Shown piece after piece: positions 38,009 through 60,130 of a stretch of 64,000 nucleotides of DNA (its first letter is position 1; each line of letters opens with the position of its first letter). The notes beneath the pieces were generated by a model. The model searched no databases. It was not told where the DNA came from and worked only from the letters and a program-made list of their open reading frames with translations. The translations under genes were made by a program, and so were the position numbers. Source of the stretch: Parapedobacter tibetensis (lineage in GTDB: Bacteria; Bacteroidota; Bacteroidia; Sphingobacteriales; Sphingobacteriaceae); contig NZ_JAMXBE010000003.1 of the NCBI RefSeq assembly GCF_024704835.1, positions 124,001 through 188,000 on the forward strand, read 5' to 3'.

Positions 38009-38296
38009 CTATATAGTTCCTCTTGGCATTATAAACATTCCAAAGGCGGTAAACAACAAAAGAACTATTGCCAACACACTTAAAAGATAGTATACCCCTC
38101 CATATCTCGATACAAAAAACAAGCTTTGAATCGAAGAAAAAAGCAAACTGACCAACATTATCCAGTTCCAAATAGTCAGGAACAATTTCGCATGTTGGAT
38201 ATTGCTTACAATGGCATAAACTGCTTCATTCCTATATGTCACGGTCAATATGAATAAAACGATAGCAAAGACAAAATTCACCTTATATAACACCAT
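38009..38296 (-). CDS. Small membrane protein, putative immunity protein
   Basis: A 95-residue protein with three or four hydrophobic helices (FVFAIVLFILTVTY, LFLTIWNWIMLVSLLF, YYLLSVLAIVLLLFTAFGMFI). Its ATG lies 1 bp after the stop of the broken RHS fragment at 38298, the usual arrangement of toxin and immunity genes in this array. A membrane immunity protein would fit a membrane-acting toxin, but no toxin class is recognised. Function inferred from position. Confidence 0.5.
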   Translation of the reverse strand: MVLYKVNFVFAIVLFILTVTYRNEAVYAIVSNIQHAKLFLTIWNWIMLVSLLFSSIQSLFFVSRYGGVYYLLSVLAIVLLLFTAFGMFIMPRGTI

Positions 38297-38297
38297 A

Positions 38298-39095
38298 TTA
38301 GTAGCCCATTAGTTTCATCCCATATTTATATCGGTCATTAGTATTAAGAAGTGATCCCTTAAACGTAGGATCAGTGCTTATTTTAGAGGCTGGTGCATTC
38401 CATTTCTTCTTTATTGAGTCTTCGAGTATACTAAGAGATTTATTACTCAACCCCTAATAAAGATCATTTATTACAATCTGTTCATTATAAAGCTGATTAC
38501 TATCCCAAGACTTTGCAGCATTCCCTTTTAAAGCAGGCCCATTATACAATGACTGCAGGCCACTCCAAACATCATCCATGATCAATTTGTTTCCTGAATT
38601 CACGAAGCCCCTTATTTCAGAATTTGAATAATCAAAAAACCCAGTAACTCCCCACAATAACATCTCTAGCTTATCAACAGTAGCGGCCGCTGCACCTGAC
38701 CATTGAGTTTCAAATCCTCTACTAGAAGTTCCATCCTGAAATCATCTGTAGAAATCTGCTCTTTGATCTAGATTCTCGTACTCCTTAAAACCGTCACCCC
38801 TTTGAATATTGGTTTCATCAGCCTTACCCCAAACCGATGTATTATTCTCCCTATCTGATGTCAGCCAATGTCCGTCGCTACCATCCAGCTTTCCATTTGG
38901 ATTTTCCGCATAATAAGCTTCATCATCATCATACTCTTTGAAATACCTCCCATCAGGATCGATAAAACGAATAGGGTTATTCGCTGCATAATTATATGGA
39001 GAATAAGAATAATAGGTATTCGCCAGCGGATCCACACTACCGAAACGTCCAATAACCGGATCATAGAACCTCGCCCCGTAGTCGTAACTATATGA
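38298..39095 (-). pseudogene. RHS C-terminal fragment and toxin end with two in-frame stops
   Basis: Directly after the stop codon of the gene above (39096), in the same frame, the sequence reads [17 protein letters not shown] ... [19 protein letters not shown], the end of an RHS core, then about 180 codons of variable tail ending in RYKYGMKLMGY. Two stops interrupt the frame: TGA at 38742-38744 and TAG at 38454-38456. There is no start codon. The core segment begins exactly at the conserved YDYGARxYDP motif, suggesting homologous recombination there. The toxin tail is not recognised. Confidence 0.65.
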
Positions 39096-39398
39096 TTATA
39101 TCAAAATATTTCTTATCAAACCGAAAATAAAATATAAAAAATGGAAAGTGATGGGGGCGATCAAAAGATAGTCAATAATTCTCCTCCTTATTTCTTTACG
39201 GTAAGTATAGGCGGTAAAAATGGCCGCAAATACGAGAACAACGAAAACTGGCATACCTAATCCGTTGTTATACATCCCGTTTGCTTTTCTAAAACATTCT
39301 ACAGATAACGAATGGGCGTCAAAATAGAATCTTTGATGCAATACATACATTACCAATATCAAAACGCTTCCAATTGTTGGTGGAGCTATTTTTTTCAT
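39096..39398 (-). CDS. Small membrane protein, putative immunity protein
   Basis: A 100-residue protein with three hydrophobic segments (IGSVLILVMYVL, GMPVFVVLVFAAIFTAYTY, IAPITFHFLYFIFGLI). It starts 4 bp after the end of the toxin-44-like fragment and is its likely immunity partner. A short charged KEIRRR lies between helices. No family was recognised; the assignment is positional. Confidence 0.5.
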   Translation of the reverse strand: MKKIAPPTIGSVLILVMYVLHQRFYFDAHSLSVECFRKANGMYNNGLGMPVFVVLVFAAIFTAYTYRKEIRRRIIDYLLIAPITFHFLYFIFGLIRNILI

Positions 39399-39402
39399 AA
39401 CA

Positions 39403-39642
39403 TTAGAACCTCATCCATTTATCCATATTTCGATAACCAGCTTTAATGGCTTTCTGATCCCCCTTAGAATCACCTCCTGTTTTCCATTCATTTAAATTAG
39501 ACCCTATTATTACTTGGGGCAACGTAAAACCATTTGCTCTCATCCAAGCGCCCCATACATATTGTCCTGCATCTGATGGATTGTAAAGAACACTTGAACC
39601 ATTCTGAAAGGCAAACCTAACTTCTGCATGTTTTCCGTTGAC
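39403..39642 (-). CDS. Orphan toxin C-terminal fragment, toxin-44-like
   Basis: The frame opens immediately after the stop of the preceding immunity gene (39643) and has no start codon. About 79 codons read GKHAEVRFAFQNGSSVLYN, then DAGQYVWGAWMRANGFTL ... WKTGGDSKGDQKAIKAGY. The pattern Tyr-Asn-x-x-Asp-Ala-Gly-x-x-x-Trp-Gly, then Asp-Gln-x-Ala-Ile-x-x-Gly, resembles the polymorphic 'bacterial toxin 44' domain as I remember it. As it stands it is a silent cassette that would need fusion to a core to be expressed. Confidence 0.5.
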   Translation of the reverse strand, partial: VNGKHAEVRFAFQNGSSVLYNPSDAGQYVWGAWMRANGFTLPQVIIGSNLNEWKTGGDSKGDQKAIKAGYRNMDKWMRF

Positions 39643-39834
39643 TTACCCTCTCAGCGGCTTTCCCCCTCTTTCGACTCCAATTTTAATGTTTTTACATAAA
39701 TACCCAACTACATATTCTTTTCTGGTAGTTAATTCTATATCTTGGTTTTGTATCAAATCATCTATAGCCTTATCAATTAACTCCCAAAGTTGGGTTTGTT
39801 CATATTCTTTGTATGGATGTTCTATTTTTTTCAT
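39643..39834 (-). CDS. Small cytoplasmic immunity-type protein
   Basis: A 63-residue charged protein (KKIEHPYKEYEQTQLWEL ... EYVVGYLCKNIKIGV). Its ATG overlaps the TGA of the upstream toxin fragment by one base (TGATG), so translation is probably coupled in a functional cassette. It ends with GGKPLRG, and the next toxin fragment begins on the following codon. The family is not recognised. Confidence 0.5.
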   Translation of the reverse strand: MKKIEHPYKEYEQTQLWELIDKAIDDLIQNQDIELTTRKEYVVGYLCKNIKIGVERGGKPLRG

Positions 39835-40085
39835 CACTTGTTTTTATTTTTGGGCCCATCTGGCCAAATTTGATTGCCGTCGAAATCTACTTCTTTAACT
39901 TTTTTCCCTGTTTTCGGGTCAGTAACATCCCAATGATCTTTGTGTTTCATATCCTTCTTCCAAATATTTCCTTGTTTATCTCTCCAACCTTGCCCACCTT
40001 TTAACTTCGTTAAGTTTCCCGGAGGTGCTTTTAAAAACTTCGCTACCCCCCTAGCGGCTTTTCTTACATCATTTGACTTTTCTGA
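39834..40085 (-). CDS. Orphan toxin C-terminal fragment with HWDV motif
   Basis: The frame opens after an in-frame stop (40086-40088), overlaps the end of the preceding immunity gene and has no usable start. It reads RKAARGVAKFLKAPPGNL, then GWRDKQGNIWKKDMKHKDHW and DVTDPKTGKKVKEVDFDGNQ, ending IWPDGPKNKNK. The Ala-Ala-Arg-Gly junction corresponds to GCCGCTAGGGGGG at 40045-40058. The lysine-rich, strand-like end with His/Asp resembles small RNase toxins of the colicin E3/toxin-37 type, but I cannot assign a family. Immunity gene: 39643-39834. Confidence 0.5.
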   Translation of the reverse strand, partial: SEKSNDVRKAARGVAKFLKAPPGNLTKLKGGQGWRDKQGNIWKKDMKHKDHWDVTDPKTGKKVKEVDFDGNQIWPDGPKNKNK

Positions 40086-40537
40086 TTAATAATATATTTC
40101 CAATCTCTTTCAGTTTGTTTCCAATAATTGCGATTCATTCTAAATTCCTCATATGATATTTCGGTTTTGTTTAAATCACCCAATAAAAAGGTATATTCAT
40201 TGAAGTCTGATTCGCTATTACCCAACTCAATTACAAAATAAAACGGGTCAGTCCATTGTTCCGTGGTATTCTCTATTCCCCAAATTATTACACCCCATAT
40301 TGACAACTTATTTTTATCCAACTCAACAACTGTTAATAAACTATCATCAAGCCATTTCTTTGAGTCCCAATCATCTCTTAACTTCAGAAGAGCACCTAAT
40401 AAACCTGCCAAGAGAAATGATGTGTCACCAAGTATCTCATTATAATGGTCTACTCCCGATTTCATGGATTTAATCTTATCCAAGCAACTCCAAAGCTCGT
40501 TAACTAACATTATCTGTATTTCCTCTACCGATTTCAT
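40064..40537 (-). CDS. Putative immunity protein (157 aa)
   Basis: A 157-residue acidic cytoplasmic protein with several aromatic strands (KLSIWGVIIWGIENTTEQW, DPFYFVIELGNSES). The ATG follows the stop of the toxin fragment at 40538 directly, with no spacer. By position it protects against that toxin. Ends QKSQMM, followed by the next cassette. Confidence 0.5.
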   Translation of the reverse strand: MKSVEEIQIMLVNELWSCLDKIKSMKSGVDHYNEILGDTSFLLAGLLGALLKLRDDWDSKKWLDDSLLTVVELDKNKLSIWGVIIWGIENTTEQWTDPFYFVIELGNSESDFNEYTFLLGDLNKTEISYEEFRMNRNYWKQTERDWKYIINQKSQMM

Positions 40538-41045
40538 TTATCTGTTTTGAAGGTGTTTTTCGATTGCCTTTATCAAATCTTGTTCTGCCCCTTGTCTTTG
40601 CCCATGAGCTCTATCTCGTCCCATTCGAGAAGTAACCTTTATCCTTTGTTGAACACTTTGTTTAAGTTCCTGATGGAGAATTTGCAATTCCTCTTTAGAA
40701 TACCTACCTAAATCTTTTATTTTAGGTAATGTACCATGGACTTTTCTTGTAGCATCTAAACTTTTTACCCGCCTTAGCGGCACCCGCTTCAATACCTACA
40801 CCCCAGTTTCTATAATCTACTAAATCCTGCTTATTTTGACAACAATTTGCTAGACCATTTTCAGTAACCTCAAAGCTTGTTTTCTTTGCAGTTTTCGTGT
40901 TAATGAAAGAATAGCTACGACACGTCTGTTCGCAGTCGATTGGATTTGCTGAAATAGGAGTTACAAATAATACAGAAAGCAATAAGGTAATAAGAATACA
41001 CAGTATTCTCGCTATCAACTTTTCTATATTAAATAATTCTTTCAT
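40538..41045 (-). pseudogene. Short secreted carrier plus toxin, broken by a homopolymer frameshift
   Basis: The ATG at 41045 overlaps the barstar stop (ATGA). The first frame gives a signal peptide or membrane helix (ILCILITLLLSVLFVTPISA), a cysteine-containing leader (CEQTCRSYS; NCCQNKQDLVDYRNW) and the junction EAGAAKAGK. At an A5 run (minus strand, 40762-40766) the frame must shift: removing one A joins AAKAGK to SLDATRKVHGTLPKIKDLGR and on to a basic, helical toxin end (GRDRAHGQRQGAEQDLIKA). The toxin family is unknown. It is either a true frameshift mutation, a phase-variable site or a sequencing error. Confidence 0.6.
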
Positions 41046-41416
41046 ATACTTACTAATGCTTTTAAAGCATCCTCTGAAGATTTTGGAAATATGACTTCTA
41101 AATAATGGTTCTCATCTGTTTGCCAATCTTGGACAGCATCATTTAGTATTTCCAAATAAATTTTCAAGTCATTTTCTTCAATATGAGGTATTACAGTATG
41201 TATCAAAACAATTCCCTTGTTCTGCATCCAATGAAAATCCCTTAAACAGTCAGATAAAGCATCCCAATTAAAGCTAAAGTAATCTGGTAGTTGCAGTTTA
41301 TTATATAGTTCATTTAACAACTCCCCCTTAGTCCTTACATTGGAATCTACCTCCGCTATGAATGATTGGATTGGCTGATAAGAATTTATATCTTCTATGA
41401 ATTTGAAGTGTACCAT
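41042..41416 (-). CDS. Barstar-family RNase inhibitor (immunity)
   Basis: A 124-residue protein. The segment TKGELLNELYNKLQLPDYF, followed by FNWDALSDCLRDF, matches the barstar signature that plugs the barnase active site. The gene begins 13 bp after the barnase-like toxin gene, the expected cognate pair. The start is placed at ATG 41416, since the upstream extension to 41485 overlaps the toxin gene. It should bind the toxin in the cytoplasm and block its RNase activity. Recognition of both partners makes this the best-supported toxin/immunity pair in the window. Confidence 0.85.
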   Translation of the reverse strand: MVHFKFIEDINSYQPIQSFIAEVDSNVRTKGELLNELYNKLQLPDYFSFNWDALSDCLRDFHWMQNKGIVLIHTVIPHIEENDLKIYLEILNDAVQDWQTDENHYLEVIFPKSSEDALKALVSI

Positions 41417-41429
41417 AATTGAAATGATT

Positions 41430-42005
41430 TTATCTGATTGGAATAAATGTTTTGTAATGGTCTGGAGTAAACCACATCTGCCCATTTTGACCTGTTACAA
41501 TTCTCATTGGTCCCGGTCCCGTAACTCCAGGAGTAGGGTGAACAAATTCTCGATAAAATCCTGAGTTCTGTTTCGGTAGTAGTCCTTCTAAATTTTTGAA
41601 AATGGAGCCATCATTGCGGTGCGGGAACTTGCCTCCTGATGCAATTCTATTTAATGTTGGTTGTAAATCTGTTAACCCTTTAGAGGTTGAAACAAAGCGT
41701 GTTGATAACTGACCTGCCCCCTTAGCGGCAACACTTACAACATCTGCTAAAACTTCACACTCTGACCCGGTCTTGTCTTTTGAAAGTATTCGACCTAACC
41801 CACCAGTAAAACCAGCTTCTGCCCAAACCGAACTTTCGATTTCATCATAGGTATAAGAATAAGAAGTAGGACTATGAGGATCAAGCCCTGAATTTGTAAA
41901 GTTTGCAAAAGCAACTACGATAGTAAATTGGAAAATGAAAATGGAGATTAGGCTGAGAAGTATTTTTATCAACCAAGGCATCCTATATTTTAGAACTTCA
42001 CTCAT
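41430..42005 (-). CDS. Barnase-like ribonuclease toxin with its own membrane leader
   Basis: A 191-residue protein. A hydrophobic N-terminal segment (LIKILLSLISIFIFQFTIVVAFA), a short linker and the junction SVAAKGAGQ precede a C-terminal barnase-type RNase domain. Visible catalytic candidates match barnase order: Glu in GFYREFVHP, Arg in GPMRIVTG and His in TPDHYKTFIPIR; the loop GGKFPHRNDGSIFKN corresponds to the guanine-site region. No RHS core is attached. The ATG at 42005 overlaps the preceding immunity gene by 8 bp. The barstar gene follows. Confidence 0.85.
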   Translation of the reverse strand: MSEVLKYRMPWLIKILLSLISIFIFQFTIVVAFANFTNSGLDPHSPTSYSYTYDEIESSVWAEAGFTGGLGRILSKDKTGSECEVLADVVSVAAKGAGQLSTRFVSTSKGLTDLQPTLNRIASGGKFPHRNDGSIFKNLEGLLPKQNSGFYREFVHPTPGVTGPGPMRIVTGQNGQMWFTPDHYKTFIPIR

Positions 42006-42225
42006 TATCTTTTTTGCCAATAGCTACTAAAACATTTTCTCCTTCCAGTTCTTTCTGCTCTACTCTGACTTTAGTACCTGGAAGAAACTCCCATTCTTCA
42101 TCATCAGGATCATAAATTTCTTCTCCCTTAAGTTGAAAGATATTTTCACCTATTTCGATAGCTGGAACAGGTCGATAAACAATCGTTCCTTCTCCTAAAA
42201 GCTGTATGTATATTGTTTTTTTCAT
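41998..42225 (-). CDS. Small immunity-type protein next to the RHS/colicin-E5-like toxin
   Basis: A 75-residue acidic protein (KKTIYIQLLGEGTIVYRPVP ... DPDDEEWEFLPGTKVRVEQ) with an all-beta look. It starts 3 bp after the RHS toxin stop, and its acidic nature suits binding of a basic RNase. I recognise it as a small protein that commonly accompanies such RHS genes, without a named family. Confidence 0.6.
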   Translation of the reverse strand: MKKTIYIQLLGEGTIVYRPVPAIEIGENIFQLKGEEIYDPDDEEWEFLPGTKVRVEQKELEGENVLVAIGKKDNE

Positions 42226-42228
42226 TAT

Positions 42229-45200
42229 TTAATACTTGAACCCCGGACCTCCTACGTGTAGAAGTTCATTCGTAACATTATCCGTTACTACTGATTGACC
42301 TGTTTTAGGATGAACATAACGAGTTGCCCCATTTGCTTTATTTACATTATTCATTGCTTTGAACTGTTTTCCTTTAGAAATCGCCTCACCTATTTGTTTT
42401 TCTGTCCATCCTCTTTTAGTAAGTTGATTAGCCCATTTCGTAGATGATTTAAAGCTACCATATGTCCACTTACTCCCCTTAGCGGCTTTGATAACCTTAC
42501 CAATTGACGCAGGATTTCCCCTGCCAATATCCATGGGATATCCCATCGTAGGAAGCGGGCCAAGGTTCCTTCCATTGATATCATATCGGTAACCACCTTC
42601 CTCACCCCCAGTCAGAATATATCTTACCAAACCCAAGGGTCCCGAATATGGCGAAATGTTTGATCCCGCCAAACTCATGGAAACGGTTTGTCTTCCCGTC
42701 ACAGATGCCGTTGGCAATAACGAAGTAGAAGTATTGGTGCCGCCCTCTCCTTCCATTACGATAATATCGCCCGGTTTTGCACCAGCCGGTATTTCGTCAC
42801 CCGGGGGCAAGTGAAAAGTCGTGTCACTTGCCGACATTCCATCCGGGTCTATATACCGTAATGGATTATTCAGTGCATAATTGTAAGGAGACACATCGTC
42901 GAAGTCCTCCGCCAGCGGATCCACCACTCCCCACCGTCCGATCACCGGGTCATACAGCCTCGCGCCGTAGTCGTAATAACCCGTTACGTCCTGCTGTTCC
43001 TTGCCATTGTAAAGGTAACGGTTTTTTGTCGCGGGGACAACATTGCCCGTGGGATGCTGCAAGCCGAACGGGTAATAGTCCGTACGCAGGTTGACCGTGG
43101 TAAGCGCATCGGAAGCAAAACCGCTCCGCGCGTTGCCAAGATGGTCCTTCAGCACGTAATCGTATTTACCGGTCGGGAGGATCCGTCCTTCCTCCGTGTG
43201 GATAAGGCTCAGCGTGGTGCCCTCCCACTCGACCCCATTGATATAGTCCGTGGTGATGCTCCCGGTCACCGAACGCAGTTTCCTGCCCGTGGCATCGTAC
43301 GTATAGGTGGCAGGATTCGTACCGCTGACCGTTTTCGGCAGGTTCAGCTCATTGTAGGCAATCGTGCGGTTCAACCGTCCATCCCGTGTCATGTTGCCGT
43401 TGCCGTCATACGTGTACGCCGTACCCACTCCTGTGATCCGGTTCAGGCGGCTGCTGCCCAACGGAAGGTACTCGTAATCCATGGCCGAGCCATCCCGGGT
43501 GAGCCGCTGGATGTTACCCATTGGATCGTATTCCGGATTTTCACTCCGGCTGCCGCTGCCGGAACCTGTCGCCAGGCGGTTCAGCTTATCATAGGTGTAG
43601 TTATAGTACTGTGTACCCTGTCCGAGATGCTGCCACTCCTGCCGGCTGATGTTGCCGTTGAACTGCCGCACCACGCCGGTGATGCTTTCATTGTACTTCA
43701 GGTATTGCCTGAACTTCGTGGAAACACTTTCGCTGAGCCAACCCCGGGGATTGTAGGCATAGGTCACCGTTTCGCCGAACGATGTCCCGTCCGTACTGTG
43801 CAGGCTTTTCGTGCGCAGCTGCCCGATGTCATTGTAACCGTTGCGGGCGATGAGCGTGCGCGTACCCGTGTTCAGAGTCTTCCATGTATCCAGCGGACGG
43901 CCCCGGTGGTCATGGGTGTGTTCCGTTCTTACCGTAGCCGATAGGCTGCCGGAAGCGTAGTGCCGCCGCGTACTGGTCAATACCTGCCCTGTGAAGCTGT
44001 ACTCCGTGGCAAGGTCATCATAGTTATTGGCAGTGTAACCGGAGCTCCCGCCTTTGTAGTGCTGGCCGATCTCCCGTACCATGTTTCCGCGATCATCGTA
44101 GTACACCGCGGTCCAAAGGTATTGGCCGGTGCCCAACACGTTCACCCGGGAGACCGTGGGAAGGCCTTTTGTCAGTTTGCTGTATTCCCCGGACTTATCG
44201 TAGCTCCCGGGCAGCCCTGCCACGTCATAATCATCGAAGAACTGTTCGGTCAGTACCGTGACTCCACCGGTGGGCCACGACCGATCCGTGTAGGTATTTC
44301 CTGGCCGCTCCTCCCACGCATTGCTACCCGTCTGCGCATCCACCTGGGTCTGTACCGTACCTCGGTAATCCTGGCCCGCAGTGGCGCCGTGGTTCCAAAA
44401 TCCAGTACGTACCACCCGTCCATGGGCGTCATACTTGGTCACCACCCACTGCTGGGGTGATTTCATCCGCTGCGCGCTATCCTGCGTGGCAACTATTTGG
44501 TCCAGCTTGTTGTAAACAAAAAACTCCCTGCCCTTGCCGGGAACCCGCTTCTCCACCGGACGGCCGCGCCCGTCGTACCTGTAGTGGTATACATGGTTGG
44601 CCAGCCACGTATTGCGGGTTGTTCCTACAGCGGGCAGGGTACCCCGGTCGGGTGCCGCACCGGGCGTGAGCACGAACGCCAGGCGGCCGAAGTCGTCGTA
44701 GACATAGTAGGTGCTCAGTACGGCGCCTGCATCATAGGTCCGTTTCAATACCACCCTTCCCTGCTTATCGATGTACTCCTCCACCGTGCCGTTACGGCCG
44801 TCACCGATCAGCCAATTCTCATCCCTGGTGATGGTCACGTAGAGTTCCCCGGCGCTGTAGATGGCATTGGACGCGAGTGCCAGCGTGGGCGTGCCCTGTG
44901 CGCTGAGGCTGACCCCGTAAAGTGCCACGCGCCTGCCGGAAATGCCGAAGCTGCCCGCGTCATTGGTGCCGTATTCCACCATCACTGTGCGGCCACCCGT
45001 GGATGTACGGGCACCCAGTTGCCAGGCATCGCCCGGGAAACCCTGCTCCTGCACGCGGTCCAGTGGGGACGGTTCGTATTTGCGCGGGGCAAACGAGGGG
45101 GTGAGGGTTGTCCCTGATATCGGGTCGATTTTAACCACCCCCGTAGGTGGACCATTGTAGTAGGTGGCCTGCTGCGTCACAGCCCCGGCCTTGAATGCAC

Positions 45201-45675
45201 CTCCCGCACCCGTGCCCGTGCCATAGGGGAGGTAGTCCTTGTCCCGGCGGCCGAAGGCGTCATAGGCTATCGGGGCGACCACATCGCGGTAGCCCGTGCC
45301 GCCGGACGCCTTCACCCCTACTTCCTGCATCTCCCGGCCGAGGCCATCGTAGTACGTGATGTCACGCATCGCATCGGCCACCGTGAGCGTGGACGGCGGC
45401 GTATCCCCGAAGCCGCGCAGATAGACCGTCTTCTGGATGTAGTTCTGGTTGTTGCTGGCCGCATTGCCCAGTCCCGTAGCTGCCGGGGCGATAAAGGCGT
45501 GGAAATTGCCCGTGCTCGTAAAGCCCGGACTGAGTGTCACCGTCGTAGGCGCCGAGTACTGACCCGTGGCGCCGGGTTTATTCAGCACCAGCTGCCCGCT
45601 GGCCGTTATTGAAAGGCATACAAAAAGCAGTGCGATTATCGGGTATCTCATAGTTTTCATATCTTGAATATTCAT
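42229..45675 (-). CDS. RHS (DUF6443) polymorphic toxin with colicin-E5-like C-terminus
   Basis: A 1148-residue exported protein: signal peptide (YPIIALLFVCLSITASGQ), a DUF6443-type N-domain (residues about 80-200; RDITYYDGLGREMQEVG), many YD/RHS repeats, the core end [16 protein letters not shown] ... NPLRYIDPDGM near residue 900-940, a linker, then at about residue 1063 the junction KAAKGSKW. The tail GWTEKQIGEAISKGKQF, GATRYVHPKTGQSVVTDNV and LLHVGGPGFKY matches the colicin E5-type tRNase domain as I remember it. The RHS shell would encapsulate the toxin. The core is GC-rich and the tail AT-rich. Last gene of the operon starting at 54144. Confidence 0.85.
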   Translation of the reverse strand: MNIQDMKTMRYPIIALLFVCLSITASGQLVLNKPGATGQYSAPTTVTLSPGFTSTGNFHAFIAPAATGLGNAASNNQNYIQKTVYLRGFGDTPPSTLTVADAMRDITYYDGLGREMQEVGVKASGGTGYRDVVAPIAYDAFGRRDKDYLPYGTGTGAGGAFKAGAVTQQATYYNGPPTGVVKIDPISGTTLTPSFAPRKYEPSPLDRVQEQGFPGDAWQLGARTSTGGRTVMVEYGTNDAGSFGISGRRVALYGVSLSAQGTPTLALASNAIYSAGELYVTITRDENWLIGDGRNGTVEEYIDKQGRVVLKRTYDAGAVLSTYYVYDDFGRLAFVLTPGAAPDRGTLPAVGTTRNTWLANHVYHYRYDGRGRPVEKRVPGKGREFFVYNKLDQIVATQDSAQRMKSPQQWVVTKYDAHGRVVRTGFWNHGATAGQDYRGTVQTQVDAQTGSNAWEERPGNTYTDRSWPTGGVTVLTEQFFDDYDVAGLPGSYDKSGEYSKLTKGLPTVSRVNVLGTGQYLWTAVYYDDRGNMVREIGQHYKGGSSGYTANNYDDLATEYSFTGQVLTSTRRHYASGSLSATVRTEHTHDHRGRPLDTWKTLNTGTRTLIARNGYNDIGQLRTKSLHSTDGTSFGETVTYAYNPRGWLSESVSTKFRQYLKYNESITGVVRQFNGNISRQEWQHLGQGTQYYNYTYDKLNRLATGSGSGSRSENPEYDPMGNIQRLTRDGSAMDYEYLPLGSSRLNRITGVGTAYTYDGNGNMTRDGRLNRTIAYNELNLPKTVSGTNPATYTYDATGRKLRSVTGSITTDYINGVEWEGTTLSLIHTEEGRILPTGKYDYVLKDHLGNARSGFASDALTTVNLRTDYYPFGLQHPTGNVVPATKNRYLYNGKEQQDVTGYYDYGARLYDPVIGRWGVVDPLAEDFDDVSPYNYALNNPLRYIDPDGMSASDTTFHLPPGDEIPAGAKPGDIIVMEGEGGTNTSTSLLPTASVTGRQTVSMSLAGSNISPYSGPLGLVRYILTGGEEGGYRYDINGRNLGPLPTMGYPMDIGRGNPASIGKVIKAAKGSKWTYGSFKSSTKWANQLTKRGWTEKQIGEAISKGKQFKAMNNVNKANGATRYVHPKTGQSVVTDNVTNELLHVGGPGFKY

Positions 45676-50429: not shown

Positions 50430-50462
50430 TGGTTTCGAATTGTTCACTGCGTTTATTTTTAT

Positions 50463-51203: not shown

Positions 51204-51212
51204 GGTATTTTA

Positions 51213-52112
51213 TTAGTTTCTGTCTTGTAAAATATTCGCCTCCAAAAGCTGCAATCGGGACTCCATCGCTTTCATCCGGTCCACTTCTTTACGGATTGCT
51301 TCCATTTCCCGGTCCTTCTCAATCAAGTGAAGTGTCAATTCCTCAACTTTCTCCAGGAGCTTCCGGTTCATCTCAGCTAGGGCCACACCCTCAGCTTTCA
51401 CTTCACTGGCTTTGGGGATACCCGGCAAGTGCCCGTTTGCGTTGATATAGGCCTCCAGTTCGGCGAGCGAAGTCAGCCGGTAATCCGGCTGAAACACATA
51501 ATCCGGCCAATTTGCCACTTCCACCTTGATTTCCTTTGCTCGTATATTACCATTCACCGAAAGCCGCTCGGTGGGCGTAGCCGTGCCGATACCCACGCGG
51601 TCTTGCATTATAGACTTGTATTGACGGGTTTTGGTGTGTGCAACAGTCATCGGTGTGGTTACGGCCAATTGGCTTTGGATTTGGTTGGCTGCCGCAGCGG
51701 TCTGCATCTGTCCATCTATTTTTATGGAAATGGTGTTTCCCGTGCTGACTAGGTGATAGATGGGAATGGTATTATTTTGGGCATCATAGTCGCCTATATG
51801 CCATTGAGTGGCCAAGGGTCCGCTGGCATCCAAAATTTCGGTGTATTCATTGAAATAACCGGAAGAGCCTTTCACCACACATATCCGCTTTTTCAGCACG
51901 CCCATATTCAGTTGGTGGTTATAGCCGCCGGTTATGGTCACGGTAAGCAGCCCGATAATGTTTTGATCGACCGGCAGCTGAATATAGTTCACCTGGTTGG
52001 CCGCACCGTGTGGGAAGGCTACGGCAAACGATTTCTCAAAATGAAAGGTCGCTTGACCATAAACATTGCAGGCCAGCATAGTGGCGATGCAGAGGAGTAA
52101 TCCGTACTTCAT
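51213..52112 (-). CDS. Secreted tail-fibre-like protein
   Basis: A 299-residue protein with a signal peptide (LLCIATMLACNVYGQ), an N-terminal beta domain with strands such as NIIGLLTVTITGGYNHQ, then VGIGTATPTERLSVNGNI and the conserved C-module (NWPDYVFQPDYRLTSLAELE, NANGHLPGIPKASEV, LAEMNRKLLEKVEELTLHL) with a coiled-coil tail. Its N-domain layout recalls that of the gene at 33032. The start overlaps the upstream gene by 4 bp, so translation is coupled. Confidence 0.75.
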   Translation of the reverse strand: MKYGLLLCIATMLACNVYGQATFHFEKSFAVAFPHGAANQVNYIQLPVDQNIIGLLTVTITGGYNHQLNMGVLKKRICVVKGSSGYFNEYTEILDASGPLATQWHIGDYDAQNNTIPIYHLVSTGNTISIKIDGQMQTAAAANQIQSQLAVTTPMTVAHTKTRQYKSIMQDRVGIGTATPTERLSVNGNIRAKEIKVEVANWPDYVFQPDYRLTSLAELEAYINANGHLPGIPKASEVKAEGVALAEMNRKLLEKVEELTLHLIEKDREMEAIRKEVDRMKAMESRLQLLEANILQDRN

Positions 52113-52951
52113 GGTTGTTTGTGTTGGTTTTTGTTTGCCTCCCTTTTTGGTCCGCTGCCTTGTTCAAGCAACTCAATCCGATTTTCCAGGCGTTTCAACG
52201 TTTGTATTTCCTTCTCCTTCTCAATCAAATGCAACGTTAACTGTTCCACCTTCTCTAGCAGCTTCCGGTTCATTTCACCCAGGTCGATGCCCTCGGCTTC
52301 CACTTCCTGCGCACTCGGAATTCCAGGCAGGCGGCCGTGTCGCTTGATGTAGGCTTCCAGCTCGGGCAAAGGCTGCAATGCGTAATCCCCATGGAACACG
52401 TAATCCGGCCAGTTGGCCGTTTCCACCTTCACCTCCTTGGCGCGCACCCGGCCATTGACTTCGATGCCACCATGGTTAAATACCGCCTGGATGCCATTGG
52501 ACGCATATCCACGAATCAGCCAACTCACCGTGGTGCCATTGTTCGAATATTGCCGCATGAACGGTCCGGACGCGTTGGAGGCCACCTCCGTATAACTGGA
52601 TTCGTTTCCGCTCCATTTTGCGGAGCCGTCTGAGTTGACACGGTAGAGCTCCTTATATTCCGAATTGCGCCACTGGAAATACATGTTGGCGCTCTGCAGA
52701 TCGAACAGCAATCTATCGTTGCTATTAAAAATCCGGGCAGCGCCGGATCCATCGGATGTCCGGAACCGGATATAACCGCCATTGGAAGTCGATTTCCCAA
52801 CGATATCCAGTACGCTGTAGGAGCCGATCGAATAAGGGCTGGTGGTCCCGATGCCGGCATTCCCTGAATTGGGAAACCAATTACTTTGTGCCACGCTTGT
52901 GGAGGCAATCAGCAATAATGCTGAAGAGATGGTAGACGTTTTGATTATCAT
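52109..52951 (-). CDS. Secreted tail-fibre-like protein
   Basis: A 280-residue protein with a signal peptide (SALLLIASTSVAQ), SGNAGIGTTSPYSIGSYSVL, a beta-rich middle and the C-module NWPDYVFHGDYALQPLPELE, IKRHGRLPGIPSAQE, LGEMNRKLLEKVEQLTLHL, ending in a basic, lysine- and glutamine-rich tail. It is followed by the next gene with a 4-bp overlap. It is second in the presumed operon, after a 281-bp gap. Confidence 0.75.
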   Translation of the reverse strand: MIIKTSTISSALLLIASTSVAQSNWFPNSGNAGIGTTSPYSIGSYSVLDIVGKSTSNGGYIRFRTSDGSGAARIFNSNDRLLFDLQSANMYFQWRNSEYKELYRVNSDGSAKWSGNESSYTEVASNASGPFMRQYSNNGTTVSWLIRGYASNGIQAVFNHGGIEVNGRVRAKEVKVETANWPDYVFHGDYALQPLPELEAYIKRHGRLPGIPSAQEVEAEGIDLGEMNRKLLEKVEQLTLHLIEKEKEIQTLKRLENRIELLEQGSGPKREANKNQHKQP

Positions 52952-53232
52952 GGTGTTTATCTATTTGCTTTAAAGTCCTGATATAGCTTTTTTATGAGCT
53001 ATGCGCTGCGCATTAACAGAACAGAATATCTTATTTACCTATCAAGTATTTTCTGTTTAATTTTTTGCTTTTAGTTGCCAGTACCTATCCCGTCTTCATG
53101 GGATGGAACCTTTGATGATTAATCCGCCAGCTGGCGGATCCCTGTGGGTTTAACTGCGAAGCATTCATGAACGCCTTTGAAAGCACGTAAACTTGTGAAT
53201 AATGATTATTCTAATCATGTCTGTTTCATATT
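52952..53232. other. 281-bp gap with an 18-bp perfect palindrome
   Basis: No gene seen. A perfect palindrome, atccgccagctggcggat, lies at 53122-53139 (9-bp arms) and could be an operator or a transcription stop between the first and second tail-fibre genes. Confidence 0.45.
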
Positions 53233-54144
53233 TTACTTGGTTTTCAATGAATTAATCTCCCGTTGCAATGCTTCAATCACTCCCCACATTTTTTGTTCAT
53301 TTTTTTCCCGTTCAATCAGATGCAGTGTCAACTGTTCCACATTCTCCAGCAGCTTCCGGTTCATTTCGCCCAAGTCGATGCCTTCGGCCTCCGCTTCCTT
53401 TGCCGTGGGCATGCCCGGCAGGTGGCCGTATTGCTTGATGTAGGCTTCCAGCTCGGGCAAAGGCTGCAATGCGTAATCCTCGTGGAACACGTAATCCGGC
53501 CAGTTCGCCGTCTCTACCTTCACCTCCTTTGCGCGGATGCGGCCGTTTACGGAGAGTTTGTCAACCGGAGTTATGGTGCCGATGCCTACGTTGCCATTTT
53601 GGATATAGTGGTCGCCGGAGCCGGTCATTCTCAGTTTCCCGGAAGATGCCACATCACTCCTTGAGTCCAATATTGTCCTCCAATCATGGAATGCCCCGGT
53701 GACCCCATTTTCATTGGTGCCACCTGACCATGCACTGGTCCGGAAATACATCTTTTTGGTATTTGCTCCGATGTAAATATTAGATTCCCAATGATTATTA
53801 TATCCATACATGGCCAGAAGGGTGCCGTAACTGTTATTATCAGGGCTGCCAACATCCCCCGGTCGCCTTGTAACATAATCATCAAACAATTTGATGCTCA
53901 TGTTTCCAAGCTGGGTACGTGGTGCGGCCGAAAAATTATAATTGACCTGGGGGAAAGAAAATTGATTAGATCTTGTGGTACCTATGACATCCAGCTCCTT
54001 GGATGGTGTTGTGGTTCCTATCCCCACATTCCCCGATTCTGAAATCTTATTGGTCTGTGCCAGGCAGACCGAGGTGAGGGCCAGCGGAAGCAGCATCGAT
54101 AACATGTATTTTACTTGCATATGTTTTTTTTGGTTTAACGTCAA
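53233..54144 (-). CDS. Secreted tail-fibre-like protein, first of the RHS operon
   Basis: A 303-residue protein with a signal peptide (LSMLLPLALTSVCLAQ), SGNVGIGTTTPSKELDVIGT, a middle with segments such as SKELDVIGTTRSNQF and YNNHWESNIYIGANTKKMYF, then a second GNVGIGTITPVDKL and the C-module NWPDYVFHEDYALQPLPELE, IKQYGHLPGMPTAKEA, LGEMNRKLLENVEQLTLHL. It heads the operon leading to the two RHS genes. The duplicated upstream element lies about 130 bp before its start. Confidence 0.75.
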   Translation of the reverse strand: MTLNQKKHMQVKYMLSMLLPLALTSVCLAQTNKISESGNVGIGTTTPSKELDVIGTTRSNQFSFPQVNYNFSAAPRTQLGNMSIKLFDDYVTRRPGDVGSPDNNSYGTLLAMYGYNNHWESNIYIGANTKKMYFRTSAWSGGTNENGVTGAFHDWRTILDSRSDVASSGKLRMTGSGDHYIQNGNVGIGTITPVDKLSVNGRIRAKEVKVETANWPDYVFHEDYALQPLPELEAYIKQYGHLPGMPTAKEAEAEGIDLGEMNRKLLENVEQLTLHLIEREKNEQKMWGVIEALQREINSLKTK

Positions 54145-55540: not shown

Positions 55541-55546
55541 CATACT

Positions 55547-55888: not shown

Positions 55889-55891
55889 ATT

Positions 55892-56424: not shown

Positions 56425-56437
56425 ATGATTATCTTTG
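56407..56437 (+). promoter_or_regulatory. Consensus promoter of the VapBC pair
   Basis: TTTG (56407-56410), 19-base spacer, TATCTTTG (56430-56437): full consensus, 7 bp before the antitoxin ATG. Confidence 0.8.
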
Positions 56438-56444
56438 TATCAGC

Positions 56445-56675
56445 ATGGAATTGATTTTAAAATCAAATAGTAAGTCTAAATTGGACAAGGTTTTGGCGTT
56501 GGCGAGAGAACTGGGAATTCGCGTGGAACAAAAAGAAGAACCAGTAACGAAGACGGCTGTGGTTCCCAAAGGTAAGGCAGTTCCTGCGAGTACGTTATTG
56601 GAGAGCTTTGGCAAGGGCTCCGATTTCCCCAGTACTGACGAGGTGCGCTCGAAAGCCTGGCCTTCTTCATGGTAA
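56445..56675 (+). CDS. Antitoxin of a VapBC-type pair
   Basis: A 76-residue protein with a charged N-terminal helix (KSNSKSKLDKVLALARELGI) and a flexible tail containing LLESFGKGSDFPSTDEVRSK, typical of short VapB-like antitoxins whose tail wraps the PIN toxin. It overlaps the PIN gene by 7 bp. It lies on the plus strand inside the minus-strand cassette array. Confidence 0.75.
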   Translation: MELILKSNSKSKLDKVLALARELGIRVEQKEEPVTKTAVVPKGKAVPASTLLESFGKGSDFPSTDEVRSKAWPSSW

Positions 56676-57037
56676 TTTTTGACACCAATATCCTCATTGA
56701 GCTTTACCGTGGAAACGAACGGACACGGGAAGCTGTCCTGACCTTAGCTACTGCTAATTTCTACATTAGTGCCATCACCGTGGCCGAATTTTTAGTCGGG
56801 GCCAGGAATAAACAGGAGATGCGTGCCATCCGCAAGCAACTTACTCCTTACACGATGCTTCCGATTACGGAGGAAATATCAGCCGTTTTTATCAACCTGT
56901 TTCAGGATTACAGCTTAAGTCACAAACCCAGTATTCCCGACACGTTCATTGCTGCGACCGCATTATACTATGACTTACCTGTGCTCACGTTGAACAAAAA
57001 GGACTTTCAATACTTTCCGAACATCAAATTGCTTTAA
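56669..57037 (+). CDS. vapC: PIN-domain ribonuclease toxin (VapC family)
   Basis: A 122-residue PIN domain, a metal-dependent RNase. The acidic residues are in place: IFDTNILIEL at the N-terminus, VAEFLVGA in the middle and IPDTFIAATALYYDLPVLTL near the end. Length fits VapC. It is cotranscribed with the upstream antitoxin from a consensus promoter. Its opposite orientation and self-contained promoter suggest independent insertion; it may stabilise the array. Confidence 0.88.
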   Translation: MVIFDTNILIELYRGNERTREAVLTLATANFYISAITVAEFLVGARNKQEMRAIRKQLTPYTMLPITEEISAVFINLFQDYSLSHKPSIPDTFIAATALYYDLPVLTLNKKDFQYFPNIKLL

Positions 57038-57044
57038 ATTTACC

Positions 57045-57275
57045 TCTCTCTGCCCTCCCGACCCCATCTGGATATTGCGGCACAAGCTGGTCCTCCTTTC
57101 CTGTCTCTATAATCTACTAAATCCTGTCCATTTTGACAACATTTGCCAAATCATTTTCAATGACCTTCCCAACTGTTTTTGCTATTTCTGTATGGAGTGA
57201 AGAATATGCTGTTGCCTTAACATTAGTAACAAGTGAAACAAAAAGAAATAGCAATATTTTAATAAACAACCTCAT
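57045..57275 (-). pseudogene. Decayed short secreted carrier (second copy)
   Basis: ATG 57275 starts a signal peptide (RLFIKILLFLFVSLVTNVKA), then EIAKTVGKVIENDLAN and a stop at 57117. Shifting one base restores CCQNGQDLVDYRDRKGG, clearly the same leader as NCCQNKQDLVDYRNW in the carrier at 40538-41045. The toxin that should follow is missing. It is a relic of a non-RHS toxin carrier. Confidence 0.6.
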
Positions 57276-57299
57276 TTTGTATTTCCTTATCTTAAAGTG

Positions 57300-57770
57300 T
57301 TACTCAGAACTTTTATCTTTTTCAAACAATTCATTATACTTTTTCACTTGAGGTGAAGTCCTAATAATGCTCTGCACTTGTTCATAATTCCACGGAACAA
57401 TGTTTAGACCTTCATCTAAAATGACTAATCCGTTAAGACCGCAAAACTCAATTATGTGACTTAGTATCAATTCATAGTTACTCGTAAAATCTATTCTAAA
57501 AGAAACAGAAAGAACATTACCTTCATTATCAGAAAGAACCTCAAAGCAATTTGATTCCTGATTGCCGTATAAATCAATATCGTTGCTCCAAGATTTAGTT
57601 TTTTTGAGTGTTGAATTGATTTTGTTAAAAAAGCCTTTTTTAAGAGGGTACTTCTTCCAAAATAACTCATCATCAAATCCTTCATCAGTACGATTAAAGA
57701 AAGAATCACTGGCTAAAGTACTTACACTTTCCTTAGGTAACACTTGAAATATATATTGCCAAATTGCCAT
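57300..57770 (-). CDS. Putative immunity protein of the ParB-like toxin
   Basis: A 156-residue cytoplasmic protein (DEGFDDELFWKKYPLKKGFF; DIDLYGNQESNCFEVLSDNE; VKKYNELFEKDKSSE). Its ATG overlaps the toxin stop by one base (TAATG), so it is coupled to the ParB-like fragment. The family is not recognised; the acidic, aromatic composition is typical of immunity proteins here. Confidence 0.55.
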   Translation of the reverse strand: MAIWQYIFQVLPKESVSTLASDSFFNRTDEGFDDELFWKKYPLKKGFFNKINSTLKKTKSWSNDIDLYGNQESNCFEVLSDNEGNVLSVSFRIDFTSNYELILSHIIEFCGLNGLVILDEGLNIVPWNYEQVQSIIRTSPQVKKYNELFEKDKSSE

Positions 57771-58066
57771 TAGTAACGAGAATAAATTAGGTCATCAACT
57801 GATTTATAGCCAGCATAAGGTAATTTGACCTGTTGTACCGGAACATTTTGAATACCTAACTCTTTTGCTGTTCTTAGGCGATGATGACCATCTACAACAA
57901 ATCTTTTACCGTTATGCTCTACAAACTTTATTGGTTCTTGAACGCCATTTAACTTTATGTCAGCTTTAAGTTTTGCAAAAGCATTTTTGGACTTGGTAAG
58001 TCCGTGAATTATCTGTAATTCATAAGGACTTAATTTAGTTACCGTCTTAGCAGCAACTCTACCAGT
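57770..58066 (-). CDS. Orphan toxin fragment with ParB-like domain
   Basis: Ninety-eight codons with no start, opening after an in-frame stop that overlaps the previous immunity gene. It reads GRVAAKTVTKLSPYELQIIH, then VQEPIKFVEHNGKRFVVDGH and HRLRTAKELGIQNVPVQQV. The Gly-His-His-Arg box with the flanking hydrophobic strands is the ParB/sulfiredoxin-type core. ParB-like domains occur as nuclease toxins in polymorphic systems. The junction AAKT corresponds to GCTGCTAAGACG at 58043-58055 and is the most divergent of the set. Confidence 0.7.
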   Translation of the reverse strand, partial: TGRVAAKTVTKLSPYELQIIHGLTKSKNAFAKLKADIKLNGVQEPIKFVEHNGKRFVVDGHHRLRTAKELGIQNVPVQQVKLPYAGYKSVDDLIYSRY

Positions 58067-58445
58067 TTACATCCATATTTTTTTCAGCATACTTAATTGG
58101 TTCAATATATTCTTCGTCTAATTTATTTAGCAACTGTCTTGATAAAAGAGAACTTTTGTTCAATACATTACTTTCATTAGCCAGTGCCTTATACCACTGT
58201 CCAGAATAAAGTTCAGATACTGTACCTTGTAATTCAACAAGGTTTGATATAATATCATCGTCTATCTTAGAATTAATCAGCTTTAACTCCTTCAAAAATT
58301 CTGGCTTTGATAGAATATCCAGTCTATGGATTGCTTCTGCAAAACTTTTTAAATCTTCTTCTGAATATGCTCTTAAACTCGTAGCCAAAATCATCAACAC
58401 ATATACTATTTCTTCATAATGAAATTTCAATATTTCTCTTTTCAT
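58059..58445 (-). CDS. Putative immunity protein (128 aa)
   Basis: A helical cytoplasmic protein (REILKFHYEEIVYVLMILAT; HRLDILSKPEFLKELKLINS; LLNKLDEEYIEPIKYAEKNM) starting 1 bp after the toxin fragment at 58447. Immunity to that fragment is inferred from position. Confidence 0.5.
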   Translation of the reverse strand: MKREILKFHYEEIVYVLMILATSLRAYSEEDLKSFAEAIHRLDILSKPEFLKELKLINSKIDDDIISNLVELQGTVSELYSGQWYKALANESNVLNKSSLLSRQLLNKLDEEYIEPIKYAEKNMDVNW

Positions 58446-58446
58446 A

Positions 58447-58767
58447 TCAAGGTCTAAAGTTTGGTGAAGGTGAAACCCGAATAGTATTTTTTGACGTTGC
58501 GTTTATCTTACCATAAGTCAGTTTCCAATAACTTACGGGTTTACTAGTAGTTGAATGCACTGCATTTGTTTCCCATTGAGCATAAAACCTTTTATTCCCT
58601 ATCTGTTTTTCGAACACGGTTCGAGTTCCCCAGTTACCCTCTAATTTTTTCCATCCGCTATTAACCAGATCATCCGATACATTAGTTAAGCTCTTATTTT
58701 TAAACATTTGACCAAAATCATCTAAGCTGTTGAATGATTTAAAACCCCCCTTAGCAGCAGTACTACT
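58447..58767 (-). CDS. Orphan toxin C-terminal fragment
   Basis: In the frame of, and directly after, the stop of the preceding immunity gene (58768), with no start until an internal ATG at 58707. It reads TAAKGGFKSFNSLDDFGQMF, then GWKKLEGNWGTRTVFEKQIG and RFYAQWETNAVHSTTSKPVS, ending RVSPSPNFRP. The junction AAKGG is exact (GCTGCTAAGGGGGG). The C-terminal half looks like a compact beta toxin domain seen on other Bacteroidota RHS proteins, but I cannot name it. Immunity gene: 58059-58445. Confidence 0.55.
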   Translation of the reverse strand, partial: SSTAAKGGFKSFNSLDDFGQMFKNKSLTNVSDDLVNSGWKKLEGNWGTRTVFEKQIGNKRFYAQWETNAVHSTTSKPVSYWKLTYGKINATSKNTIRVSPSPNFRP

Positions 58768-59031
58768 TTAATCCTTCATTTCATCTTTATTAGGTGGTCG
58801 TACCTGATTTATAAATCCTTTTTCTATCGCACCAAATTTTTCAAAATTCCTTTTGGCTTCATTTAAACTTACTCGATTAGCCCCCCCTTCATAGTCAGAG
58901 TCATTAAGCTGCACGCCATCATCCTCCCAATAACAAACAGGACAAATTTGAAAGGTGTTATCAGGCCTCTGATCTAAGGTATAGTATCCACAACATGGAC
59001 ACTTATACTTGTTAATAATATTAGTATCCAT
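58768..59031 (-). CDS. CPCC-type cysteine-rich immunity protein
   Basis: An 87-residue protein with CPCCGYYTL and ICPVCYWEDDGVQLND, then YEGGANRVSLNEAKRNFEKF, which is the cysteine-rich CPCC family often found next to polymorphic toxins. The cysteines could bind zinc. The ATG at 59031 overlaps the end of the toxin fragment by 11 bp; the longer frame from 59067 would extend into the toxin. Confidence 0.75.
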   Translation of the reverse strand: MDTNIINKYKCPCCGYYTLDQRPDNTFQICPVCYWEDDGVQLNDSDYEGGANRVSLNEAKRNFEKFGAIEKGFINQVRPPNKDEMKD

Positions 59032-59347
59032 ACAGTTGTACTTGCTTGAGATAATAATCCATTCCATTAGTTGGACGGAAAAATGTTTCTATATGCCCTT
59101 TAGGATGAGTTGTTAAAAACTCGCCAGTCTTCGAGTTAAATCTAAAATTCCAGCCTTGCTTTGACGTAAACTCACGAACATGCCCTCCAACAGGGCTATC
59201 CGCTAACTTAACCGCTCGATTATAAAAAGCTTTTTGTGATATAGATCCCCATTGAGACCATTCATCTGCATGTTTACTAAACTTCTTCGCAAGGTTAGGG
59301 AATCTTCCAGCAGTCAAAAGTTGTTGTCCCCCCTTAACGGCAACTGT
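59021..59347 (-). CDS. Orphan toxin fragment, BECR-like fold suspected
   Basis: Opens after a TAG (59348-59350) and lacks an ATG; only a TTG at 59317. It reads TVAVKGGQQLLTAGRFPNLA, HADEWSQWGSISQKAFYNRA and EFLTTHPKGHIETFFRPTNG, ending in MDYYLKQVQLYGY. The order His-x-x-Glu-Trp helix, beta strands, and FRP-x-x-G-x-x-Y-(Y/W) recalls barnase/EndoU/ColD/RelE-type nuclease toxins; tentative. The junction is a variant, AVKGG (GCCGTTAAGGGGGG). Immunity: the CPCC protein. Confidence 0.5.
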   Translation of the reverse strand, partial: TVAVKGGQQLLTAGRFPNLAKKFSKHADEWSQWGSISQKAFYNRAVKLADSPVGGHVREFTSKQGWNFRFNSKTGEFLTTHPKGHIETFFRPTNGMDYYLKQVQLYGY

Positions 59348-59350
59348 CTA

Positions 59351-59800
59351 TCAAGTCTTATTATAGAACTCAGGATGTTTATTTTTCCAATACTTTTCAA
59401 ATTCAGCCATCTTTAATTCATAATTGTTACCACTAAAAAAATCATTTATCAAATCGTAATTTTCATAAATTACAGATGAGGTATGACTTAATTGTTTCCT
59501 AAAACATTCTTGAATGTCTTTTTCCTTTCGAAAATATTCAGATTTAGGAATATTGGCATCACCTTGTTTCAAGTATTCCAACAAATTAAATAGGTTTATC
59601 TCATCGTCAGGTCTATTTGTTTTATAAAGTGATGTATAGAATTCTCGAAAGTACTTTTCTATTTTAATTACAAAATTATTTGAACTATACTCAATCATAT
59701 AGGATTGTCCTTCGTTCAAATCTTTTTTTTTCTGAAAGCCATATAATTCAACAAGCCTTTTAAAAAACTCATAGATATATTTTATAAAACCCTGTTTCAT
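59351..59800 (-). CDS. Putative immunity protein (149 aa)
   Basis: A mostly helical, charged protein (KQGFIKYIYEFFKRLVELYG; YFREFYTSLYKTNRPDDEIN; ELKMAEFEKYWKNKHPEFYN) beginning 9 bp after the toxin end at 59810. By position it protects against that toxin. Unrecognised family. Confidence 0.5.
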   Translation of the reverse strand: MKQGFIKYIYEFFKRLVELYGFQKKKDLNEGQSYMIEYSSNNFVIKIEKYFREFYTSLYKTNRPDDEINLFNLLEYLKQGDANIPKSEYFRKEKDIQECFRKQLSHTSSVIYENYDLINDFFSGNNYELKMAEFEKYWKNKHPEFYNKT

Positions 59801-59809
59801 ATCTCAATC

Positions 59810-60130
59810 CTATTTTTTAATCATTCTAGAAAAATCATCAGTCCAAGAATAGCCGTGTCTTTGCAAATACCTAATCTCTTGTGCAAGGACAGAGTTAGGG
59901 TCAAGTCTTGCAGGATTATATTTTCCTGAGAATATTACATCATCGCCTCTTTTAACTACTCCTTGTAAAAACTTTACATTCTTACGCATTGTCCATGCTT
60001 CATCAGTTACATCAAGGAAGTTGGCCCCGATTTTTTTCGCAGTTTCTCTATAAGTTGCCCTAGGTCCAATTACACTTACCCCCTTAGTGGCAAAACGCCC
60101 AGTCAAATAACTGCCTAACTTCGGAAGCAT
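59810..60130 (-). CDS. RHS toxin C-terminus separated from its core by a G-run frameshift
   Basis: A 106-residue frame starting MLPKLGSYLTGRFATKGVSV, continuing VIGPRATYRETAKKIGANFL, KRGDDVIFSGKYNPARLDPN and ending YSWTDDFSRMIKK. The junction is the variant ATKG (GCCACTAAGGGGG at 60078-60092). Upstream, the RHS core frame reaches a run of seven Gs (minus strand, 60146-60152); with six Gs the core would read straight into this toxin. The toxin family is unknown, though the DDFSRMIKK ending looks familiar from other RHS proteins. Confidence 0.6.
   Translation of the reverse strand: MLPKLGSYLTGRFATKGVSVIGPRATYRETAKKIGANFLDVTDEAWTMRKNVKFLQGVVKRGDDVIFSGKYNPARLDPNSVLAQEIRYLQRHGYSWTDDFSRMIKK

Follow-up and report, generated by a model that had tools for sequence, protein, structure and literature searches.

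What lets toxin tails of unrelated sequence be joined to leaders as different as RHS proteins and short, non-RHS proteins? The question is raised by a 64,000-nucleotide (nt) stretch of the Parapedobacter tibetensis genome (contig NZ_JAMXBE010000003.1, positions 124,001 to 188,000; here called the window), in which a short DNA sequence, the junction box, heads each of eight predicted toxin tails, all on the minus strand. The initial annotation had located these eight sites to within a few nt and had read their peptides correctly: AAKG, AAKG, AAKA, and AARG at 42474, 41717, 40769, and 40046, and ATKG, AVKG, AAKG, and AAKT at 60079, 59329, 58746, and 58042. It had also taken the box for a recombination or exchange point, which is supported by relatives in which identity starts at one box and stops at the next. 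We consider it probable that this short DNA sequence bounds exchangeable toxin-immunity cassettes and that box-to-box recombination loads such cassettes behind delivery leaders.

The evidence lies in where homology begins and ends. An EndoU cassette present in genome G665 (locus L202) and in Pedobacter sp. ASV28 (G314, locus L162) is identical at 694 of 707 aligned bases, from base 1 of one box to 2 nt beyond the next, with different RHS leaders ahead of it and different toxins behind. The window's 60079 cassette recurs in G025 (L050) and in Cognataquiflexum (L188), and in each of the three pairs local homology extends from one box to the next and stops there. Both edges are shared in both cassettes, and no homology was seen outside the boxes. 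On the leader side, G019 and G314 are identical at 462 of 468 bases, ending 3 nt past a box, with unrelated toxins beyond. Similarly, the Colicin_E5 tail of the window has 59 of 79 residues identical to a tail in a Weeksellaceae genome (L190); an RHS protein carries the window copy and a short leader carries its relative.

Among 50 sites compared, six pairs have homologous toxin tails. In the five strong pairs, homology starts 1 to 4 residues past the tetrapeptide and the upstream DNA is unrelated; in the one weak pair (22/80 identical), it starts later. In eight other pairs, the upstream DNA is homologous but the tails are unrelated; here homology stops ≤20 nt from the box in both sequences for seven pairs, and 3 and 152 nt from it in the eighth. 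No pair shared both the toxin and the upstream side at the thresholds used. The pairs are not all independent, since the 60079 cassette supplies three to each list. Identity had been predicted to rise at the motif and to fall after it, and this was seen in both directions for the EndoU and 60079 cassettes and in the 50-site comparison. We used a site-anchored comparison because an all-against-all comparison of open reading frames (ORFs) for swapped tails was dominated by other kinds of repeat and by antisense frames; searches with single toxins were too sparse, the EndoU tail giving one partial protein match in 251 genomes.

The box core is GCCGCTAAGGGGG, frequently extended to (GTAG)TTGCCGCTAAGGGGG(G/T)A, and information content drops sharply beyond about −3 to +16, with a smaller peak at +19. 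Exact matches to GCYRCTAAGGGGG number three in the 5.98-Mb genome, all within the studied locus, and 7 of the 25 genome matches with ≤1 mismatch are studied sites. Overall numbers of matches do not point to enrichment: the reversed pattern gave 26 genome-wide matches with ≤1 mismatch, and at ≤3 mismatches the window held 44 matches versus 38.7 ± 5.4 in shuffled sequence, so that strict matches alone are informative. The remarkable feature is the clustering of the sites, which is extreme, and not the genome-wide number of matches. Consecutive boxes in the window lie 583 to 948 bp apart, a range that holds 23 of 25 measured spacings.

Might the peptide alone explain the box, with AAKG(G) required for linking or for cleavage and the DNA simply following? 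In the intact fusions observed, frame 0 does run through the box, and the variants AVKG, ATKG, AARG, and AAKT are similar as peptides. Against this, the synonymous positions are fixed. At 49 sites (40769 being excluded for its broken frame), GCT encodes the second Ala in all 43 cases, AAG encodes Lys in all 47, and GGG encodes Gly in 40 of 42, compared with 36, 32, and 18% in the same tails; these figures are inflated because most sites were found by DNA similarity (≤2 mismatches). An AAA codon alone would be one mismatch only, yet none was seen among the 49 sites, and with the same caveat the test of synonymous positions that had been suggested for the box favors conservation at the DNA level. 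In any codons, AAKG occurs 23 times in the sampled ORFs: all 14 copies at toxin junctions are box-coded and none of the nine elsewhere is, although many of the loci had been picked by their box and one of the nine, in L112, may mark the junction of an RHS tail written in different codons. The box persists on orphans that have no leader and on short remnants, and when RHS tails were collected by a core pattern, only 2 of 87 contained AAKG or one of four variants. A purely peptide-level constraint therefore strikes us as very improbable. As for the G-rich run, which as AAGGGGG or AAGGAGG resembles a Shine-Dalgarno sequence, we rejected a role as ribosome binding site for orphan toxins because an ATG lies ≤14 nt away at only 3 of 50 sites (GTG and TTG not counted); the chance that this accounts for the box is practically nil.

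Box-bearing junctions also occur in other genomes, where a pattern match was called a toxin cassette or not by eye from its ORF context. Exact searches with GCYGCTAAGGGGG in 201 genomes of the family gave 16 matches in 14 genomes (5 for the reversed control pattern), eight at toxin junctions (two of these in the window's genome) and eight unrelated. GTTGCYGCTAAGGGG gave 15 matches in 13 of 400 genomes drawn by order, all of them listed under the same family and overlapping the 201-genome set (control, 1); eight of the matches mark toxin junctions, one of them belonging to the window's genome, and the other seven do not. In a named genome collection, AGTTGCCGCTAAGGGGG matched 21 stretches, comprising 14 clear cassette contexts, two unclear ones (L180 and L183), and five that are not cassettes. 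The clear contexts belong to Arachidicoccus (two), two Pedobacter, bacterium A37T11, a Flavobacterium metagenome-assembled genome (MAG), a Chitinophagaceae strain, Belliella (two), Cognataquiflexum, Gynurincola, a Weeksellaceae strain, a Saprospiraceae MAG, and a Kapaibacterium MAG. Six stretches matched in viral contigs, none of which was judged a toxin cassette. In several Bacteroidota families, the box is thus present on RHS genes, on short leaders, and on orphans that have no leader.

Boxes also repeat along arrays. In 18 loci containing a seed box (168,896 bp), the same strand held 10 exact, 4 one-mismatch, and 9 two-mismatch extra boxes, compared with 0, 0, and 2 on the opposite strand and 0, 0, and 5 for the reversed pattern; at least two of the nine two-mismatch boxes look like chance, and in some of these loci (G314, G019, and G187) several boxes were already known beforehand. 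In G314, a box-bearing RHS gene is followed by four more boxes. The AAKT variant GC[CT]GCTAAGACGG recurs in G314, L184, L189, L190, L202, and at window position 58042, and it heads a 20-residue remnant downstream of another RHS gene in the genome that contains the window (C45:441369). Among 395 genomes of the phylum, two contain GTTGCCGCTAAGACGG: this one, at C45:441369, and G665. Frame 0 is closed 6 to 27 nt upstream of the box at 25 of 50 sites, so these tails are leaderless; in orphans, the preceding ORF ends a few nt ahead of the box. At L049 (10054-10500) and L162 (11017-11463), the last codons of an immunity-sized ORF (..SSCR) and its stop lie inside the box in another frame, so that the box can also close the upstream gene. 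Domains behind the junction include Colicin_E5, Ribonuclease, EndoU, WHH/Colicin-DNase, Tox-REase-9, Tox-ART-HYD1, and DUF4258, with GIY-YIG below the cutoff; seven of the tails tested had no Pfam match. As in polymorphic-toxin arrays, a main toxin gene comes first, and every leaderless tail downstream of it has an ORF of immunity-gene size behind it.

At the level of sequence comparison, then, we have shown that both edges of shared cassettes fall at the box, that boxes are repeated along arrays, and that the DNA is more fixed than the peptide requires; we infer that the box itself served as the homologous stretch in repeated events. A cassette would comprise box, toxin tail, stop, immunity gene, stop, and the next box. 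Recombination between two box copies would bring in a new cassette and fuse it in frame to a delivery leader, which may be an RHS protein or a short leader that is presumably secreted, and would move the older cassette downstream as a leaderless orphan that could be used again. Such loading would explain in-frame fusion, leaderless orphans, and stacking. Exchange would rely on the general recombination machinery of the cell, which would act on very short homology without a dedicated recombinase; where a leader or an immunity gene is shared, its longer homology probably helps occasionally. We favor general recombination over very short homology as the most economical model; the enzyme is its least certain part.

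Several results, in addition to the inflated codon counts, weigh against box-mediated exchange. A stretch of 13 to 18 bp is short for RecA-type recombination. Of 89 tails in 93 loci fetched for their RHS core and not for the box, none had a clear box and two had weak matches, so only a minority of RHS genes use the box; its expected presence at RHS-toxin boundaries held in some relatives and failed at most boundaries sampled. Downstream of these RHS cores (414,588 bp), the same strand contained one one-mismatch and seven two-mismatch matches and the opposite strand four two-mismatch matches; the lone one-mismatch match (G071, L137) stands at the start of a tail of 72 residues and appears to be a genuine box, and the seven include the AAKT remnant at C45:441369 in the window's genome. 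Three window toxins have homologues (24 to 77% identity) on box-less RHS genes (L073, L116, L110, L086, and L058), and no box with ≤2 mismatches was found in the 3.2-kb locus of an EndoU relative (L174; 68%). G019 has a leader that matches a box-bearing one at 95% identity across 147 residues and carries another tail with no recognizable box: swaps thus occur without the box. No insertion or excision was seen between sister strains.

The box may instead be only a scar, the relic of an ancestral pre-toxin segment that marks the inner edge of a conserved leader, with longer homology driving exchange. Diverged relatives of such a segment are present on box-less RHS genes (NAANGGIQL in L060 and NVAGAGIQL at 61718-63967 of the window), and their sequences hint that the box originated from an ordinary pre-toxin segment; moreover, some pairs have in common the immunity gene or leader adjoining the box, and the G019 paralogue swap fits the same reading. 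We nevertheless find it unlikely, because in toxin-sharing pairs the final 60 nt ahead of the box are alike only at chance level (0.20 to 0.38), yet the box is kept as DNA; most leaders compared have no similarity adjoining the box; and the EndoU and 60079 cassettes share both edges without outside homology. A dedicated site-specific system, in which a recombinase recognizes the box and inserts circular cassettes as in integrons, would account for the single box per cassette, the spacings, the precise edges, and the use of the box by unrelated leaders. The 516,722-base contig, part of a draft assembly, contains no match to Phage_integrase or Resolvase (tyrosine and serine recombinases; transposase and HUH families were not searched), and the eight genome matches to PF00589 include none on this contig. 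The 22-base consensus has no self-complementary word of >3 bases (longer flanks of single sites were not folded), which led us to reject an integron attC site. These findings make a dedicated system improbable. That the box is the attachment site of a Bacteroidota toxin-cassette exchange system, short, asymmetric, and recognized by a putative recombination activity, is improbable; in that case, the box would be common to unrelated vehicles and families, and any box-bearing cassette would fit any box-bearing leader.

Exchange between boxes by general recombination remains our preferred reading, and the window contains two arrays, both on the minus strand, that illustrate its parts. Array A begins with an intact RHS gene (42229-45675) that includes the box GCCGCTAAGGGGA (AAKG; 42474..42486) between the RHS delivery leader (42487..45675) and a toxin tail with a Colicin_E5 RNase domain (42229..42486). 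Pfam matches within 42232-45675 are DUF6443, RHS_repeat, and Colicin_E5 only, the last of which backs the colicin-E5-like label given to this tail. Next comes a short non-RHS leader with a hydrophobic N-terminal stretch (41730..42020), the box GCCGCTAAGGGGG (AAKG; 41717..41729), a barnase-type ribonuclease tail (41430..41729), and a Barstar-type immunity gene (41042..41485), whose start codon is uncertain and whose ORF overlaps the toxin. Pfam Ribonuclease and Barstar matches uphold the barnase label, and the adjoining Barstar gene indirectly supports the predicted toxin and immunity activities. A second short leader (40782..41045), also with a hydrophobic N terminus, ends in ..CCQNKQDLVDYRNWGVGIEAG, and similar ends were found in L190 and L193; behind it lies the box GCCGCTAAGGCGG (40769..40781). 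The junction of leader and toxin is broken here: the toxin tail (40538..40780) has its own frame, different from that of the leader. This tail is homologous to the box-less tail of G045 (L058). A probable immunity gene (40064..40537) has its stop codon 5 nt ahead of the box GCCGCTAGGGGGG (AARG; 40046..40058) on a leaderless orphan tail (39834..40058), and a box-less RHS core fragment of the DPDG type (38742..39035) ends the array.

Short leaders of ∼65 to 100 residues with a hydrophobic N terminus are joined to the same box and toxin tails at 40782-41045 and 41730-42020 and in L190, L193, and L165; short-leader fragments run against Pfam gave no match. One kind ends in a recurrent ..YRNW.. segment, a truncated, box-less copy of which is found at about 57100-57280. 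A type II secretion/type IV pilus-like set adjoins array A (30905-37501, minus strand): a secretin, a T2SSE ATPase, an A24-like peptidase (below cutoff), and an N-methyl pseudopilin. Of 24 box loci tested, the 20-kb G314 locus (L162) has homologues of all four proteins and the G019 array contig (L047) has one of the pseudopilin; the remaining loci, mostly short, have none. The set is a possible export route for the predicted toxins.

Array B lies downstream of an intact RHS gene (61718..63967) whose tail lacks the box and has NVAGAGIQL at the equivalent place. It starts with a displaced and frameshifted RHS core fragment (60132..60536), followed by four boxes, each heading a tail and then a small ORF. 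The frameshift of the RHS fragment that precedes 60079 is upstream of the box; it lies near a seven-G run between core fragment and tail (60079-60536) and could be decay, an assembly error, or a slippage site. The box GCCACTAAGGGGG (ATKG; 60079..60091) opens the cassette shared with G025 and Cognataquiflexum, made up of a toxin tail whose homology begins at the box (59810..60091) and an immunity gene (59351..59800), and the shared cassette ends at the box GCCGTTAAGGGGG (AVKG; 59329..59341). This second box heads an orphan tail (59021..59341) with a probable immunity gene (58768..59067); the third, GCTGCTAAGGGGG (AAKG; 58746..58758), heads an orphan tail (58447..58758) whose probable immunity gene (58059..58445) has its stop codon 4 nt ahead of the fourth, the AAKT variant GCTGCTAAGACGG (58042..58054). 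The last orphan tail (57770..58054), followed by a probable immunity gene (57300..57770), had been labeled ParB-like: the resemblance falls below the curated cutoff of NCBIfam, the only database against which this tail was run. The tails at 40769, 58746, 59329, and 60079 had no Pfam match, and that at 40046 had none in NCBIfam, the only database tried. At the end of array B, a PIN-domain (VapC-like) gene lies on the opposite, plus strand (56669-57037). Elsewhere in the window (49815-54144 and 33960-34703), several paralogues (repeat families D1, D4, and D5) have a conserved C-terminal half and a variable N-terminal half, the mirror image of the toxin genes.

Displaced toxin-immunity pairs have been described in other systems, including by Poole et al. 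2011 (PMC3150448) and Koskiniemi et al. 2014 (PMC3967940). The initial annotation likened the box to VENN in CdiA, with a different sequence, and in geometry the likeness is close. In contact-dependent growth inhibition (CDI), according to the sections of the report cited here, homology runs from one VENN-encoding sequence precisely to the next and then diverges, tandem start-less orphan cdiA-CT/cdiI pairs lie behind the large toxin gene, and recombination between VENN-encoding sequences is proposed as one model (PMC3150448). Motif-to-next-motif homology is what we find in the present cassettes. They differ from the CDI modules in having an AAKG motif, RHS and short leaders rather than CdiA/DUF638, and a mainly Bacteroidota setting; whereas the VENN peptide belongs to a conserved pre-toxin domain, our junctions have AAKG or a variant, and the box has little conserved sequence around it. 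The Rhs orphan modules of Salmonella are likewise displaced: rhs-CT/rhsI pairs lie downstream of the main rhs gene and are rejoined by recombination, but in the part of that report drawn on here 522 bp are shared, with 95% identity, and the tip starts at DPxGL (PMC3967940). Here, the shared stretch is about 13 to 18 bp and the tip of the window RHS gene is not delimited by DPxG(L): AAKG lies 117 residues after DPDG, although core-anchored fragments exist at 38742-39035 and 60132-60536.

Silent C-terminal cassettes are also known from Neisseria maf, for which the portions of the paper cited here name a DWVKN peptide motif, in a figure legend, and report no short fixed DNA box (PMC4287609). Displaced effector-immunity arrays of the Vibrio type VI secretion system are described, in the corresponding portions, as recombining without specific integration sites, again with no short fixed DNA box reported (PMC5361080), and cassette or immunity arrays appear in the cited part of a further study (PMC3482391). 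Integrons resemble the present arrays in their single recombination box per cassette and their stacking order but differ in that our consensus contains no attC-like dyad and no linked integrase was found on the draft contig. A literature search, mostly without subscription journals, returned no paper combining AAKG, toxin, and Rhs and none with the 12-base core GCCGCTAAGGGG; among the results of broader searches, we recognized no description of the box. While the geometry is already known from VENN and CDI, the AAKG box, its RHS and short-leader carriers, and the mainly Bacteroidota setting distinguish the present arrays from those modules. With unrelated sequence on either side, a DNA box of 13 to 18 bp marks cassette edges across several families and vehicles, which suggests that modular toxin exchange need not depend on a conserved protein domain. 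The box is also a search handle for toxin-immunity pairs that escape domain models, like the seven tested tails that gave no Pfam match, and with two boxes and nothing else the long-standing problem of toxin-tip swapping becomes open to direct testing.

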